Part shown: piece by piece, positions 27,801 through 35,361 of the stretch
Position numbering within the stretch: position 1 is the stretch's first letter
Layout of the letters: each line of letters opens with the position of its first letter
Source of the DNA: Mycoplasmataceae bacterium
GTDB lineage: Bacteria; Bacillota_I; Bacilli_A; Mycoplasmatales; Mycoplasmoidaceae
Length of the DNA stretch: 44,341 bases
NCBI GenBank assembly: GCA_031289475.1
Contig: JAITPK010000061.1
Coordinates: 1-44,341 of the forward strand
Direction of reading: 5' to 3'
Program-made: the position numbers and the translations under genes
The notes under the pieces: generated by a model
What the model was told of the DNA's origin: nothing
Database searches by the model: none
Seen by the model: only the letters and a program-made list of their open reading frames with translations

Positions 27801-27811
27801 ATTACTCCTTA

Positions 27812-27849
27812 TAAAAGAAAACTACTCCCATAATTTGCATGAGAGTAGT
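27812..27849 (-). terminator. Intrinsic terminator of the metK riboswitch
   Basis: On the minus strand ACTACTCTCAT / ATGGGAGTAGT form an 11-bp stem with one G-U pair, a 7-nt loop GCAAATT and the U-rich tail TTTCTTTTAT. It ends 11 nt before the metK ATG and forms the off state. A competing pairing, TTGCATGA (27868-27875) with TCATGCAA (27835-27842), would break the top of this stem. Confidence 0.88.
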
Positions 27850-27940
27850 GATAGATTATCAGTACCATCATGCAAGTTTTAGCACCTTGTATATTTACAG
27901 GTTGCTGTGTGATCATCGGGCTTGTCCCTATCACACTCTT
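27845..27940 (-). promoter_or_regulatory. SAM-I (S-box) riboswitch aptamer
   Basis: Read on the minus strand, the conserved S-box core is present in order: P1 strand GAGTGTGATA, AGGGACAAGCCCGATGA (P2 with the kink-turn and GGGAC/GCCC pairing), GCAACC, a P3 hairpin around TGTAAATATACA, AAGGTGCTAAA, a short P4, GATAAT, and the closing P1 strand TATCAC pairing with GTGATA. These match the SAM-I consensus including the bases that contact SAM. With the terminator downstream it should switch metK off at high SAM. Confidence 0.93.
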
Positions 27941-27953
27941 TATGGTTGAGAGT

Positions 27954-27959
27954 ATTATA
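27954..27959 (-). promoter_or_regulatory. -10 box of the riboswitch-metK transcript
   Basis: TATAAT lies about 16 nt upstream of the aptamer P1, giving a start near 27947 and a leader of about 147 nt that holds the whole riboswitch. The -35 region is weak and A/T-rich. Confidence 0.6.
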
Positions 27960-27974
27960 TAAGATGTTGAAAAA

Positions 27975-29042
27975 TTATTTATATATTAATGATTTTTCTT
28001 TGTTAGTTAATACTCGTAAAGCACCTTCAAACAAAGCTTGCATTTCATCTTCGCCTGGATAGATAGTGTATTTAATGTTCTTATCCAAGTGTTTTAATAA
28101 ATATTTCATGAATAATTTTGAATAAGCAATGCCACCAGTAATTATTAATTGATCAATTTTTCCATTGGCAGCAAAGTATAAACCACCAATTTCTTTGGCA
28201 ACTTGATAAGCCATAGCTCTAATATAGAAATCGCATTGTTTATTACCATTGTTGGCTTTTTCCTCAATACTTCTAATATCGGAAGTGCCTAGATAAGCCA
28301 CCATGCCGCCATGACCAACTAGGCATTTTTTAATTTCAGATTTAGACAGTTTATTGCTAAAACATAAATCTACTAAAGGAAAAACTGGTACACCACCTGC
28401 TCTTTCGGGAGAAAAAGGACCGTCGCCCCCTAAAGCATTATTCACATCAATTGCTTTACCAAGATGATGCCATGCGATAGATATGCCACCACCTAAATGA
28501 GCAACAATTAAGTTTAATGATTCATATTTTCTTTTGATATTGGCAGCATAGCGTTTGGCTACTGCTTTATGGTTTAATGCGTGAAATGCACAACGTCGTT
28601 CAAATAAATTAGTGCCTGATACTCTGGCGATATCGTTCATTTCATCAACAACCACTGGATCAACAATATATGCTGGTATTTTATATTTTTGAAAATATTG
28701 AAAAGCAATTATGGCACCGAGATTGGAAGCGTGTTCACCATATTTTGCATGTTTTAAATCGTTAACCATTGCTTGGTTAACAATAAAAGTTCCCGATTGG
28801 ACAGGTTTGATTAATCCACCACGGGCCACAACATATTGAAAATCTTGAATTTTATAATGCGTTTTCTTTAAGAATTCGTCAATCATTGCTTGACGATAGT
28901 TTTGTTGTTCTGCTACGGAGTGGAAGGCATTTATTTCCTTCGGACTATGCCTTAGTGTGGTGCTTTCTTTTAGCTGGTCGTTACGATAAATTGCTAATTT
29001 GGTGGAAGTGGAACCGGGATTGATAACTAAAATTAGGCGCAT
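27975..29042 (-). CDS. buk: Butyrate / branched-chain fatty-acid kinase
   Basis: 355 aa ASKHA-fold kinase producing ATP and butyrate, isobutyrate or isovalerate from the acyl phosphate. It begins LVINPGSTSTKLAIY. GGDGPFSPERAGGVP is the signature separating Buk from acetate kinase, and HLGGGIS and LIITGGIAYS line the nucleotide site. AGGAG is upstream of the ATG, which overlaps ptb by 10 nt. It is the last gene of the branched-chain amino acid operon and its ATP-forming step. Confidence 0.95.
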   Translation of the reverse strand: MRLILVINPGSTSTKLAIYRNDQLKESTTLRHSPKEINAFHSVAEQQNYRQAMIDEFLKKTHYKIQDFQYVVARGGLIKPVQSGTFIVNQAMVNDLKHAKYGEHASNLGAIIAFQYFQKYKIPAYIVDPVVVDEMNDIARVSGTNLFERRCAFHALNHKAVAKRYAANIKRKYESLNLIVAHLGGGISIAWHHLGKAIDVNNALGGDGPFSPERAGGVPVFPLVDLCFSNKLSKSEIKKCLVGHGGMVAYLGTSDIRSIEEKANNGNKQCDFYIRAMAYQVAKEIGGLYFAANGKIDQLIITGGIAYSKLFMKYLLKHLDKNIKYTIYPGEDEMQALFEGALRVLTNKEKSLIYK

Positions 29043-29935
29043 ACTAGTATCGCTCCTAGAATAATAGAGTTTAATTTTGTTTGTGAGGAATCAGCCCGAC
29101 TTGTAACGATAATAGGACATTTTGCACCAACAACAACTGAGGCACTATTAGCATTTGATAAGAACATCGAAGTTTTATAAAACACATTACCAGAAACCAA
29201 TTCCGGAAAAATCAAGATGTCAGCATGACCGGCGACGTCACTATTAATATTTTTATGTTTAACAGATTCAAGAGAAACTAAATTATCAATTGCAAACGGT
29301 CCATCTAAAATAAAGTCATATTTATTCTTATCGGTACGATATTTATTTACTAATATTTCTGCGTCAGTTGTGGAAACAATTTTAGGATTTATTTTTTCTA
29401 CGGCCGAAACTAATCCAATTTTTGGCATAGCTATACCGATTTTTTTAGCAACTTTTCATGCGTTCTCAATTAATAATCATTTTTCATCAACAGACGGATT
29501 AATATTCATTCCACCATCTGTCATAATTAATGTTTTATTTAATAACGGATAGGATAATATCGATACATGAGATAGCAACTTTGCATCTTTTATTCCATTG
29601 ACAGAATCAACAACCGCTTTAAGAAGAAACTTGGTGTCAATTAATCCTTTCATAATGATAGGGTTTGGTAGTTTTTTTGAAAGAGCAATAGTTTTTTTGC
29701 CAATTTCAATTAGATCTATTTCGTGAATTATGTTGGCTGTTATATTGTGCTTGATGATTAATTTTTCAATTTCTGTTTCGTTCCCGATTAAAGTTAGTTG
29801 TAACGATAGATATTGTAGAGCATGCTTGATTGCGATAATTACTTCTTCATCGTGGGCAGCAGCAACAATTAAGGAAAAACTATTATTTTTTGCTTTGCCG
29901 GCTAACCTCTCTAGCATTTCAAAATTAGTTTTCAC
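29033..29935 (-). CDS. ptb: Phosphate butyryltransferase (branched acyl-CoA active)
   Basis: 300 aa Pta/Ptb family protein converting acyl-CoA and phosphate to acyl phosphate. Recognisable blocks: SLIVAAAHDEEVIIAIKHAL, MKGLIDTKFLLKAV, LSHVSIL, TDGGMNINP, the DFILDGPFAIDN segment (typical DGPLALDNA), and ADILIFPELVSGNVFYK. One TGA-Trp follows DEK. The start is GTG at 29933-29935, supported by GAGGATA upstream at the leucine dehydrogenase stop. It pairs with Buk as in clostridia and Enterococcus. Confidence 0.94.
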
Positions 29936-29937
29936 TT

Positions 29938-31047
29938 CTATCCTCTAAAATCGCAACTGAAATTTTTATTTATTTCACCAACATCATCAATTCTATTTTG
30001 TGCATATAACATTGCCGCTTTTTGTGTACCAATATTTTTACTCTTAGCTAATTTATAAATTTCCAACAAACGATTATAAATTTTTTCTGTATCACGCGTA
30101 GCGGCATCTTTGTTGTATCCAATTATTTCATGATAAACATTAATGACACCGCCGGCATTGATAATAAAATCTGGGGCGTATAAAATGTTTTTATTTTTTA
30201 ACATGATGTCGTGTTTTACATCATCTAATAATATATTGTTGGCGCTACCAGCAACAATTTTAGCTTTCAACATTGGGATTGTGTTATTGTTTAATAATCC
30301 CCCTAAAGCGCATGGGCAAAAAGCATCAACATTTAATGAATAAATTTTTTCAGGAGGTACAAACTCTACTTCAGGGTGTTCTTTATGCATACGATCGATA
30401 TTGTGCTGGTTCATTTCGGTGAAATAAATTTTCTTCGCTTTGTTGGCAACTAAATGTTTAATTAGATAATAACCAGTTTGTCCAGCACCTTGTACGGCAA
30501 ATGTATATTGAGAAACGTTGTCATTACCAAATTTTGCTTTCAAAGTAGCTTTAACACCTAAATAGATGCCATAACCTGTCATGATGGATGGGTTGCCTGA
30601 TTTACCTTCTAAACCGCAAATGTATTTAGTTTCCATGGCCATATAAGAGCAATCGGTTGTGTTGATATTGATGTCTTCACCAGTCCAAACTCGACCACGC
30701 AAAGAGTTAATGTGGCGACCATAAGCACGCATTAAAACCTCGTTTTTCTTGCTAGGATCACCGATTATGACATTTTTACAACCACCTAAATTTAAACCAG
30801 CACCAGCATTTTTGTAGGTCATGCCTCTTGCTAAACGCATTACATCAAATAATGCATCATCAGCTGATTCATAATTTCAAAATCTTGTACCACCGGTAGA
30901 TGTTCCGAGTGTTGTATTGTGAATACAGGTTATGCCCTTTAGTTTAGTGTGCTTGTCTCTAAAGAAAATAATTTGTTCGTATCCTTGTTCTGCCATTTTT
31001 TCAAAAATAACATCTGTTGTAAATTTTATTCTTTTAGTGTTTTTCAT
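29938..31047 (-). CDS. Leucine dehydrogenase-like enzyme, copy 1
   Basis: 369 aa Glu/Leu/Phe/Val dehydrogenase of the Bcd type: [48 protein letters not shown] (the Lys of MTYKN and of GGxK are the substrate and catalytic lysines), and APDFIINAGGVINV. The dinucleotide site is VQGAGQTG and is followed by FTE, an acidic residue expected for NAD. It deaminates branched-chain amino acids to 2-oxoacids. Relative to copy 2 the WTGEDININTT region is changed, so its substrate range may differ. TAGGAGAAGAG precedes the start, 10 nt after vorC. Confidence 0.92.
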
Positions 31048-31057
31048 ATCTCTTCTC

Positions 31058-31600
31058 CTATTTTATGGAACGAATAAAGTTCCGTCCTTCATTAATTGCT
31101 TGCATATTTACAGGCACAAATTTTGCTTTACGTTCACCAAGAATATGTTTAACAATATCCTCAATAATATGGTCATCAAAAATTTTTGTGAGTTCTAAAT
31201 AAGCACCAACCATAACCATATTAGCAGCTTGTGGTAAGCCTACTTTAGTAGCAATTGTATTAATTGGCACTCCAAATGATTTCACATTTACATTAGTTTT
31301 ATTCATTAAATCAGAGTTGTATAAAATGATACCATCTGGTTTAACGGCCTTTTCAAATTTGTCTAGAGATGGTGCATTGAAAACAACCAAGTGATCAATT
31401 TTAGAAAATACTGGTGAATCAATATTAGCGTCAGACACAATCACGCTACAGTTGGCAGTACCACCACGGGTTTCTGGACCATATGATGGAAACCATAATG
31501 CATTCATTTTGGCTTCAACAGCACCGTAGGCGACAATTTTACCAAACATCATTACACCCTGGCCACCAAAACCGGCAGCTTTTAAATTAATAGTTTTCAT
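31058..31600 (-). CDS. vorC: 2-oxoacid:ferredoxin oxidoreductase, gamma subunit
   Basis: 180 aa. The N-terminus INLKAAGFGGQGVMMFGKIVAYGA and SYGPETRGGTANCSVIVSD are hallmarks of the gamma domain that helps bind CoA. The ATG overlaps the beta subunit stop by one base (TAATG), with AGGAG upstream. It forms the VOR/KOR-type complex with the three genes before it. Confidence 0.93.
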   Translation of the reverse strand: MKTINLKAAGFGGQGVMMFGKIVAYGAVEAKMNALWFPSYGPETRGGTANCSVIVSDANIDSPVFSKIDHLVVFNAPSLDKFEKAVKPDGIILYNSDLMNKTNVNVKSFGVPINTIATKVGLPQAANMVMVGAYLELTKIFDDHIIEDIVKHILGERKAKFVPVNMQAINEGRNFIRSIK

Positions 31601-32340
31601 TATTTGTTTGCTCCTGAATCTTTAAATGTACCAAGAGGATAAATCTTAGTCATCTCTTCGTCTAGTCATTTAATTGAATCTAATGGTTTCTTAGCCCAAT
31701 TGATTGGACATGTAGATAGAATTTCCACAAAAGAAAATCCTTTTTTTTCTTTTTGATATTTAAATGCTTTTTGAATGGCTAACTTTGCTTGAATAACATT
31801 TTTTGGGCTAGTCAATGTTACACGCGTTACATAAACTGCTCCGGTGATTTCCTTCATAATTTCCGACATACGAATTGGATAACCATGCATTGCAACGTTA
31901 CGACCCATCGGAGATGTCGTGGTCTTTTGACCTAACAATGTGCATGGTGACATTTGACCACCAGTCATGCCGAAGTTAGCGTTGTTGACAAAGATTACAG
32001 TAATATTTTCACCACGGTTGGCTGCATGAATTGTTTCTGCAATACCGATTGATGTCAAATCACCATCTCCTTGATATGTGAATACCATATTGTCTGGTCG
32101 AACTCGCTTAACACCAGTGGCAACAGCACATGCCCTACCGTGAGAAGCACTCTGCATATCACAATTGAAAAATTTATATGCCATGACTGCACAACCAACT
32201 GGAGCAATACCAATTGTGTTATCCACCTCATTCATTTCTTCTAATGTTTCGGCAATTAATTTATGGGCTACGCCATGTAGACATCCTGGACAATATGATA
32301 GTTTAGAGTCGGTTAATCCAACTTTTTTATTCATTTCCAT
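31600..32340 (-). CDS. vorA: 2-oxoacid:ferredoxin oxidoreductase, TPP-binding beta subunit
   Basis: 246 aa. The TPP motif is GDGDLTSIG...NNANFGMTGGQMSPC. Four Cys that would hold the catalytic 4Fe-4S cluster are visible: YCPGC, the VGC of APVGCAV and the late TCPINW. It is a short beta subunit of the VOR/KOR class rather than the fused pyruvate enzyme. GGAGGG sits 8 nt before ATG 32340; a second ATG six bases on is less well spaced. A TGA-Trp lies in IKWLDEE. Confidence 0.94.
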
Positions 32341-32342
32341 AA

Positions 32343-33410
32343 TTATTTCCCTCCAATCATTTTTTCAATAGCTTTTATTACATCTTCGACTTCTGGAATA
32401 ACGCCACCGGTTTCTCCGTAGAACTCTACTGGTATATTATTATTGCGAGTAGCGATTAGGACATCGTTGATCATTTGCCCCATACTCATTTCAGTAACTA
32501 ATATTTTTTTACATTTTGGTAAATGTTCAAAAGCTTTGTTTGGGAATGGCCATAACGTAATCGGACGAATCATACCGATTTTATGTCCATTAGCATTACA
32601 ATGCTGAATTGCGCTTTTGGCAATTCTTGCCATTGTGCCATATGCGACAACAACATATTCTGCATCTTTGATATTGTCAGAACATTCCACAAGAGTCTCC
32701 TCTTGAATAATTTTGCGATATTTTTCTTGCAAATGTTTGTTGTGGTTGTTTAAATCATTTGGATCAAGATAAAGTGAGTTAATAACATTTTTAGTGTCGT
32801 GGTACTTTGTGCCAATTGTACAATATGTTGATTTGTCAGGTAATTGACGTTTTTTATTAACATGATCAAAATCAACCGCTTCCATCATTTGACCAATTAA
32901 ACCATCAATCAAAATCAAAACTGGCAATCTTCATTGATCAGCTACATCAAAAGCTTCTTTAGTAATATTAATTGCTTCTTGAATGTTACTTGGTGCATAA
33001 ACAATTGTATGGTAATCACCATTACCACCACCACGAGTTGCCTGATTGTAATCTGATTGTGATGGTTGAATGCCACCAAGACCAGGACCACCACGCATTA
33101 CTGAAATGATCACACACGGTAATTCCGCACCACAGAGGTATGAAATACCTTCTTGCATTAAAGCGATGCCAGGAGATGAAGATGAAGTCATTGCACGAGC
33201 TCCGGCCCCAGCCGCACCATAAATCATATTGATTGATGCTATTTCTGATTCTCCTTGAACAAAGATCTTACCTTTTTCTTTCATCATGGATGATAGATAT
33301 TCAGGGATTTCATTTTGTGGAGTAATGGGATATCCAAAGAATACATCAGCACCACCGAGAATTGCAGCATAGGCAATTGCTTCGTTACCTTTTAATAATT
33401 GTTTAGCCAT
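32343..33410 (-). CDS. vorB: 3-methyl-2-oxobutanoate:ferredoxin oxidoreductase, alpha subunit
   Basis: 355 aa. It carries [73 protein letters not shown] and, in the C-terminal transketolase-like domain, [14 protein letters not shown] and RPITLWPFP, matching VorB. Together with vorA, vorC and vorD it oxidatively decarboxylates branched 2-oxoacids to acyl-CoA while reducing ferredoxin. AAGGAG lies within the end of vorD, and the genes overlap by one base. Confidence 0.95.
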
Positions 33411-33625
33411 TATTTAATCTCCTTAGTTTTAATTGCACTATCCGGGCACATCATGGTGCATAGACCACAACCGGTACACTTATTAATGTCAGTGATGTCT
33501 ATTACATTGTAACCATCATGATTAATTTTTTTATTATTGATGTACAGGAGTTTAAATGGGCAATAGTTGGTACACACTGCACATCCCTTACATCTCTCAA
33601 TATCAATATTTACTTTCTTTGTCAT
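33410..33625 (-). CDS. vorD: 2-oxoacid:ferredoxin oxidoreductase, 2[4Fe-4S] delta subunit
   Basis: 71 aa with two complete ferredoxin motifs, [12 protein letters not shown] and [12 protein letters not shown], each CxxCxxCxxxCP. This is the electron-transfer subunit passing electrons from the catalytic cluster to soluble ferredoxin or flavodoxin. AAAGGAAAT precedes the ATG. Confidence 0.94.
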
Positions 33626-33640
33626 ATTTCCTTTCGCATA

Positions 33641-34294
33641 CTATGTATGTTTAGCTAGATACTTATTTAATATTATCGCTTCTCCATCAAATTTTTGATG
33701 AGTTTTTAAATCTTTTATATATGAAGTGTAAAGCAGTGGGACTTTAGTAATTTTCACGACTTCTTGAATAATGGATTGCCCACTAATTAAGTCTGCTTCA
33801 GTAGTTTGCGACAACAAGTTGGAATTATTAATTAAACCTGTAATTTTTAACCCACTAGACTCTTCAATGTTTTGCATCTCCGTTACAATCTTTTGAACAT
33901 TGTTAGTTTCTGGTCTGAACACATTAATGATGAATAAAAGAGCGTAAGGTTGTTTTTCATATTCTTCAAATTGTTTGATCAGTTTTGCACCAGCTGTAGA
34001 TCCACCTAAATCGTATATTACTTTTCTATTGTTTTTATAAAGCTCAAAAATTTCTTCAGACAAAAGTGGCATATCTAAATAACGTGCTTCGGGTTCAATA
34101 GAGGAAACTACTTTAATTTGATGTTGCGTTAAAATATCAATCGTTTGACGCGAACGAAAATAAGGATTAATGACATCTAAGTCGCATAAATAATCGAAGT
34201 TTTTTTGTATAGCAAAATTTACACAAAATTCACTTTTACCTGAACCAAAATAACCAACAATGAAATAAATGTTAATTATTTGTTCTTTTCGCAT
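33641..34294 (-). CDS. P-loop ATPase embedded in the VOR operon
   Basis: 217 aa. Walker A is VGYFGSGKSEF at about 13-23; a Walker B-like KVIYDLGG lies near residue 90-97, followed by a switch-like GGSTAGAKL. DLDVINPYFRSR resembles the nucleotide/protein-interaction region of MinD/CooC-like SIMIBI ATPases. Its place between leucine dehydrogenase 2 and vorD suggests a role in maturation of the Fe-S oxidoreductase or its regulation, which is inference. It starts 19 nt inside the upstream gene without its own Shine-Dalgarno, implying coupled translation. Confidence 0.75.
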   Translation of the reverse strand: MRKEQIINIYFIVGYFGSGKSEFCVNFAIQKNFDYLCDLDVINPYFRSRQTIDILTQHQIKVVSSIEPEARYLDMPLLSEEIFELYKNNRKVIYDLGGSTAGAKLIKQFEEYEKQPYALLFIINVFRPETNNVQKIVTEMQNIEESSGLKITGLINNSNLLSQTTEADLISGQSIIQEVVKITKVPLLYTSYIKDLKTHQKFDGEAIILNKYLAKHT

Positions 34295-35361
34295 CGTCTA
34301 ACGTATGTTTTTCGTACTTCGCCGATGGTTTGGATACGTTGTTCAGCATAAACGATTGCTGCAAGTTGCGTGTTGATTTTTTTAGTTTTAGCGATTTGAA
34401 AGATTTCTAAAATACGATCATAGATTTTGTCAACATCACGCATTGCTCGATCGTGATTGTAACCAATTAATTCATGTCAAACATTAATTACACCACCGCC
34501 ATTTATTACGAAATCAGGCGCATATATTTTGCCAGCCTTTTTTAACATATCCCCATGCTTAACTTCGTCTTTTAAAACATTGTTTGCGCTACCAGCAACT
34601 ACTTTAGCTTTAATTTTGGGAATTGTATCATCATTTAAAACTGCTCCTAAAGCACATGGTGCAAACACATCAACATCTAAACCATAGATTTTGTCTGGTT
34701 CTACATAAGTAACTTCTGGATGTTCTTTTTTCATTCTAGCAATGTGGTTAGGATTTAATTCAGTGAAATATATTGTTTTGACACCGTGCTTAATTAAATA
34801 ATTAATTAAGAAATAACCAGTTTGTCCAGCACCTTGGATAGCATAAGAATATTTCGAAACATCATCATCTTTAAAAGCTTCTTTTAATGAAGCTTGGATA
34901 CCTCTAAACACACCTCATGCTGTTACTGGAGATGGGTTGCCTGATTTACCTTCTAATCCAGAAACATAATCAGTTTCCATATTAATATAGTCCATATCCT
35001 TTGCAGTAGTATTAACATCTTCAGCAGTAATGTAACGTCCGTTAAGACTTTGTATAAATCTACCTAGTGCTCTGAAATATCCTTCACTTTTTACCTTAGT
35101 TGGATCACCAATTAACACTGTTTTAGCTCCACCCGAATTTAATCCAGCGGCAGCATTTTTATATGTCATACCTCTAGCAAGACGCATTACATCAGTTACA
35201 GCATCCTCTTCAGATGTATAGTTTCAAAGACGTGTGCCGCCTAATCCTGGGCCTAATACTGTATTGTGAATACAAGTAATGCCTTTCAATCCTGTTGTTT
35301 TATCATGAAAATAAACTAGTTGTTCATATCCATATTTTTCCATTGTTTTAAATGCGCTCAT
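34276..35361 (-). CDS. Leucine dehydrogenase-like enzyme, copy 2
   Basis: 361 aa and closer to Bacillus Bcd than copy 1: [13 protein letters not shown], the [12 protein letters not shown] segment, [27 protein letters not shown] with both lysines, [18 protein letters not shown] and NPSPVTAWGV. It shares the unusual [10 protein letters not shown] dinucleotide fingerprint with copy 1 (Bacillus has GVGNVA), so the two probably arose by duplication. It heads the operon, with AAGAGGAG 7 nt before the ATG, and makes NADH plus branched 2-oxoacids. The C-terminus runs on to CEKNK, overlapping the P-loop gene. Confidence 0.94.

Follow-up and report, generated by a model that had tools for sequence, protein, structure and literature searches.

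Several described RNA classes resemble the element reported here. The residues that are highly conserved in SAM-I riboswitches, or S-boxes, which recognize S-adenosylmethionine (SAM), have been listed (PMC3764141). SAM-IV riboswitches have no P4 helix, but a P5 stem-loop with the pseudoknot PK-2 and a shorter turn (PMC6890682), SAM-I/IV riboswitches have no internal loop in P2 (PMC2864571), and spermidine-sensing variants of SAM-I, one of which precedes metK in Oceanobacillus damuensis, are set apart by altered residues in J1/2 and the P3 internal loop (PMC10853860). Here we describe the leader of metK in a stretch of 44,341 nucleotides from a Mycoplasmataceae bacterium (assembly GCA_031289475.1, contig JAITPK010000061.1), referred to as the window throughout. 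On the minus strand this leader carries a SAM-I aptamer without P4, which is very probably part of a cis-acting riboswitch that turns metK off when SAM is plentiful.

The leader lies between the genes for butyrate kinase (27975-29042) and metK (27800-26670, minus strand), the latter encoding, in genetic code 4, a methionine adenosyltransferase (TIGR01034, 476 bits versus a cut-off of 309). RF00162 (SAM) was the sole Rfam match returned by cmscan in the window, scoring 55.5 bits (gathering score 44.4; E-value 3e-10), and it is also the sole RF00162 match in the organism's own 853-kb genome. An original prediction for this DNA had proposed a SAM-I riboswitch with a closing P1 and a terminator ahead of metK, naming a covariance-model search as one of its checks. 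The score above threshold, the strong covariation described below and the identity of metK bear this out, and both P1 and the terminator with its U-tract are present (Table 1). The sequence motifs it had listed all occur in the given order on the minus strand, the strand having been left unstated, but GATAAT (27860-27855) is a linker used by the predicted antiterminator and not the 3' strand of P1. The missing P4 had been overlooked, and the upper limit assigned to the element, 27959, is the first base of the -10 box.

We aligned 19 related aptamers from termite-gut metagenome-assembled genomes (MAGs) and from one other family of the order. In a model comprising P1, P2a, P2b, P3 and a pseudoknot between the P2b loop and J3/4, 95.7% of the cells were paired versus 30-42% in slid controls. 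Both sides changed in 17 of the 26 pairs, none of 500 shuffles scored as high, and compensatory changes occurred in every helix. In P2 (P2a, 27936-27932 with 27911-27907; P2b, 27928-27926 with 27920-27918) both-side changes affected six of eight pairs, in P3 G-C was exchanged for C-G and C-G for U-A, and the pseudoknot appears as CAAG/CUUG, CAGG/CCUG or AAAG/CUUU among the relatives. In L036, the closest relative (metK identity 92-93%), bases are substituted and the helices preserved. The compensatory changes across the 19 relatives support the predicted P1, P2, P3 and pseudoknot, and the element is real and conserved and very probably a functional SAM switch.

By hand alignment, the RNA retains 21 of the 23 conserved SAM-I residues, among them the G11/C44/G58 triple and A45/U57, and all residues of the pocket are present (J1/2, G11; P3, C44, A45, C47, G56, U57 and G58; P1, U7, A87 and U88), with the pocket element GGUGC located at 27886-27882. 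From this conservation it may fairly be inferred that the lineage retains SAM sensing. A SAM-I-derived aptamer might nevertheless have switched its ligand, for example to spermidine or S-adenosylhomocysteine, as close variants with another ligand exist, even ahead of metK in O. damuensis (PMC10853860), and P4-less relatives in other Bacilli precede genes without an evident link to SAM. However, unlike the spermidine variants, the window RNA keeps SAM-type residues in J1/2 (AAGAG) and P3 (GCAACC/GGUGC), and the gene downstream, metK, itself makes SAM, which argues against a changed ligand. We regard such a switch as very unlikely and retain SAM as the probable ligand.

The P4 stem, the fourth helix of the junction, is present neither in the window RNA nor in any of the 19 aligned relatives. 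The stretch between the end of P3 and the 3' strand of P1 is only about 12-13 nt long, and a P4 in another register was ruled out as only 13 nt are available. P1 comprises only 5 bp, and the 3' strand of the pseudoknot leads directly into its 3' strand. With P4 missing, the two strands are therefore contiguous and constitute one arm of the predicted antiterminator. The novelty of this locus is the absent P4 together with the resulting switching arm, whereas its presence in a mollicute is unexceptional. In the literature covered, which was largely without subscription papers and did not include a comparison with the RF00162 seed, we found neither a description of a P4-less SAM-I riboswitch nor of S-boxes in mycoplasmas.

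In the leader, -10 box, aptamer, linker, terminator, U-tract, Shine-Dalgarno sequence and start codon follow each other. Judged from the -10 box, transcription would start at or just upstream of P1. A TANNNT hexamer lies at similar spacing ahead of P1 in all eight termite-clade leaders that have a terminator; no good -35 element was seen for the window's -10 box, and a generic promoter scan gave no minus-strand promoter. The terminator hairpin has a folding energy of -14.7 kcal/mol (z -6.5, none of 200 shuffles as good), with one terminator found versus 0.1 expected in shuffles, and the antiterminator hairpin (27875-27835) reaches -16.5 kcal/mol alone (z -6.7, again none of 200 shuffles as good). 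When the growing transcript was folded, P2 and P3 formed earliest and P1 next, until at 27835 the antiterminator hairpin took over; once the 3' arm of the terminator had emerged, the 5' strand of P1 was able to pair with it. Without ligand, the predicted fold of lowest energy is the antiterminated one, at -46.2 kcal/mol; enforcing the aptamer yields a terminated fold at -41.3 kcal/mol. These energy parameters leave out pseudoknot and ligand, and the gap of about 5 kcal/mol is plausibly of a size that ligand binding might cover.

Table 1. Features of the metK leader (coordinates in the window).
Feature	Position	Strand	Basis or remark
-10 box TATAAT of the metK promoter	27954..27959	-	sequence
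SAM-I (S-box) aptamer, P4-less	27862..27948	-	full-length RF00162 match (cmscan)
P1, 5' strand ACCAU	27942..27946	-	pairs with 27868-27864; helix 1, 3/5 pairs vary on both sides
P2a / kink-turn internal loop / P2b hairpin	27907..27936	-	covariation and covariance-model alignment
Pseudoknot, 5' strand CAAG, in P2b loop	27921..27924	-	helix 4, compensatory changes in 4/4 pairs
P3 including SAM pocket GCAACC ... GGUGC	27881..27906	-	covariance-model alignment; helix 5 covariation
Pseudoknot, 3' strand CUUG	27873..27876	-	covariation alignment
P1, 3' strand AUGGU	27864..27868	-	covariation alignment
Predicted antiterminator, 5' arm (pseudoknot 3' strand, P1 3' strand and linker)	27857..27875	-	growing-transcript folds
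Predicted antiterminator, 3' arm (overlaps terminator 5' arm)	27835..27853	-	folding
Intrinsic terminator hairpin, 12 bp, 5-nt loop	27821..27849	-	terminator scan and folding
U-tract UUUUCUUUU	27813..27821	-	sequence
Shine-Dalgarno sequence AAGGAG	27805..27810	-	4 nt ahead of metK ATG (27800)

In the proposed mechanism, transcription would start at the edge of P1, and P2, the kink-turn and P3 would fold before the rest. Binding of SAM would lock P1 and the pseudoknot and sequester the segment 27876-27864, so that the terminator could form and RNA polymerase would halt ahead of metK. When SAM is scarce, 27875-27857 would pair with 27853-27835, opening pseudoknot and P1 and consuming the 5' arm of the terminator; in this antiterminated state the 5' strand of P1 would be free for the 3' arm of the terminator, and metK would be transcribed. 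Homology, covariation, the terminator and the fold competing with it are computational results, whereas SAM as ligand, co-transcriptional switching and the off direction are inferred. In all likelihood the metK leader is an off-switch of transcription that responds to SAM.

The order of -10 box, aptamer and terminator is kept in the eight termite-clade leaders, with the -10 box 6-8 nt ahead of P1 and the terminator 36-47 nt past it. A general rule that the antiterminator rests on long perfect complementarity was rejected, as leaders vary in this respect. L038 and L051, two of the relatives examined, lack an evident terminator. The L038 aptamer (L038:2894-2980) has the metK start codon (L038:2974) within the 3' strand of its P1, and no terminator follows, which suggests translational control by direct occlusion of the start codon. 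Another metK S-box, at L113:1878-1974, has an altered P3 (GCAAAAUCC...GGACAGUGC), and its pocket is possibly changed.

Several observations weigh against a functional SAM-I switch. Of the four canonical helices P4 is missing, and the kink-turn drifts among the relatives; in the window one tandem G.A pair is retained (A20.G35 equivalents) and the other is replaced by U-A (U at 27930). Minimum-energy folding gave the antiterminator in only about three of eight relatives (the window, L036 and L035), its form not being fixed. Finally, the aptamer occurs in only 9 genomes of the window's genus versus 29 of 36 with metK, pointing to repeated loss or gain, and P4-less and aptamer-free leaders are interleaved in the metK tree. 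The drifted kink-turn and the lack of an aptamer at most metK genes of the genus would also fit a relic, an ancestral S-box that is decaying and no longer functions. Such decay is at odds with the compensatory changes, with the intact pseudoknot and P3 pocket, with terminator, antiterminator and -10 box that are still in place, and with L036, which varies the bases yet keeps the helices. We consider a relic extremely improbable and prefer the functional off-switch.

That S-boxes are not standard in mycoplasmas, as the original prediction had assumed, did not hold. Of 320 species-level genomes of the order, 55 had an RF00162 match at E<=0.001, 37 of them above the cut-off, and such matches occurred in 13 of 50 genera. 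Two covariance models were built in this analysis, R1 for the P4-less form and R2 from 14 diverged metK leaders, which show the motif GCCAACC...AGGUGG and mostly have P4. R1 matched in 31 of the 320 genomes at E<=0.01, and R2 in 91 at E<=0.001, nearly all of them in one mycoplasma family. As the R2 seed was drawn from the same family its reach there is partly expected, independent support coming from its position: the aptamer lies 58-126 nt upstream of metK in 51 of the 55 loci checked, which include some duplicate places and seed sequences. R2 leaders stay under the Rfam cut-offs (best SAM score 37.4 in a sample of 12; SAM-I/IV 28-35), and their carriers include Mycoplasma marinum, M. todarodis, Ca. 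M. mahonii, M. procyoni and M. phocimorsus (loci of this type are, for instance, L042, L047, L055, L063 and L219). By hand count, the union of RF00162, R1 and R2 gives a SAM-I-like aptamer in about 141 of the 320 genomes. SAM-I-family RNA sensors are common, not exceptional, among mycoplasmas and related bacteria.

The genome of the closest relative holds a second P4-less S-box (L112:2153-2249) ahead of a 130-amino-acid protein without Pfam match, and in another mycoplasma family the P4-less aptamers tested (three copies in L116, and L118) stand upstream of DUF4116-repeat proteins.

Beyond the order, R1 matches scoring 80-97 bits occurred across many families of the class, excluding the P4-less form as an invention of mollicutes. 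All of the 29 best R1 loci read lack P4, which, R1 itself being P4-less, shows the wide occurrence of the form and not its frequency. The next gene at these Bacilli loci mostly encodes an orphan of about 80-135 amino acids, sometimes a MoxR-like AAA ATPase and once metK; the small orphan proteins tested had no significant Pfam match. Orphan families recur in L130-L158, with an 'IPINR' family in L131, L132, L133, L143, L145 and L155 and a second one in L144, L148, L152 and L156, the genes being mostly not methionine-related. On balance we favour the view that P4-less SAM-I is a coherent subclass, widespread in Bacilli and mollicutes and often placed before non-methionine genes, and that together with the R2 form it makes SAM sensing by RNA normal in mycoplasmas.

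The reading frames of the window require TGA to be read as Trp in a code comparison, indicating a mollicute, and the nearest relatives of its metK belong to termite-gut Mycoplasmataceae MAGs, so that contamination or an ordinary Bacilli contig was ruled out. Next to the leader, an operon-like series on the minus strand (27975-35361) comprises butyrate kinase, a phosphate butyryltransferase-like gene, two Glu/Leu/Phe/Val dehydrogenases and a three-subunit 2-oxoacid:ferredoxin oxidoreductase. It looks like ATP-yielding amino-acid fermentation, which is unusual in a mycoplasma.

Mycoplasmas often serve as models of life with nearly no regulation. The SAM-I-type metK leaders described here and the diverged form in another mycoplasma family indicate that metabolite-sensing RNA is kept in many reduced genomes, where it has escaped notice by scoring under the family cut-offs. 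The lack of P4 raises the question of what the minimal scaffold for a SAM-I pocket is, and whether loss of P4 lets the pseudoknot strand switch directly.

Compared with the described classes, the window RNA shares the common SAM core with SAM-I/IV (RF01725) and SAM-IV, and with the latter also the lack of P4, which might suggest membership in one of these classes. In contrast to SAM-I/IV, however, its P2 has an internal loop and its P2b loop forms the pseudoknot PK-1, and in contrast to SAM-IV, with its shorter turn, its internal loop is of the SAM-I-like kink-turn type. By inspection, with no dedicated SAM-IV search beyond cmscan, no conserved P5/PK-2 hairpin was seen 3' of P1, where the relatives share terminator sequence only, and SAM-IV on the grounds of the missing P4 was rejected. 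As clan competition in cmscan also picked RF00162, an assignment to either class is highly improbable. The spermidine-sensing variants have a SAM-I-like scaffold and sometimes precede metK, but their J1/2 and P3 loop are altered. The window RNA is closest to SAM-I, with which score, helices and pocket agree: P1, P2a, P2b, P3, the pseudoknot between loop and J3/4, the pocket residues, metK as target and the predicted terminator/antiterminator layout of an off-switch are alike, and the kink-turn agrees in one of its tandem G.A pairs. It differs in the lack of P4, in a P1 of 5 bp, and in the 3' strands of pseudoknot and P1, which double as the predicted antiterminator arm. As P4 is absent, we file it as a P4-less variant and not as a canonical member of SAM-I.
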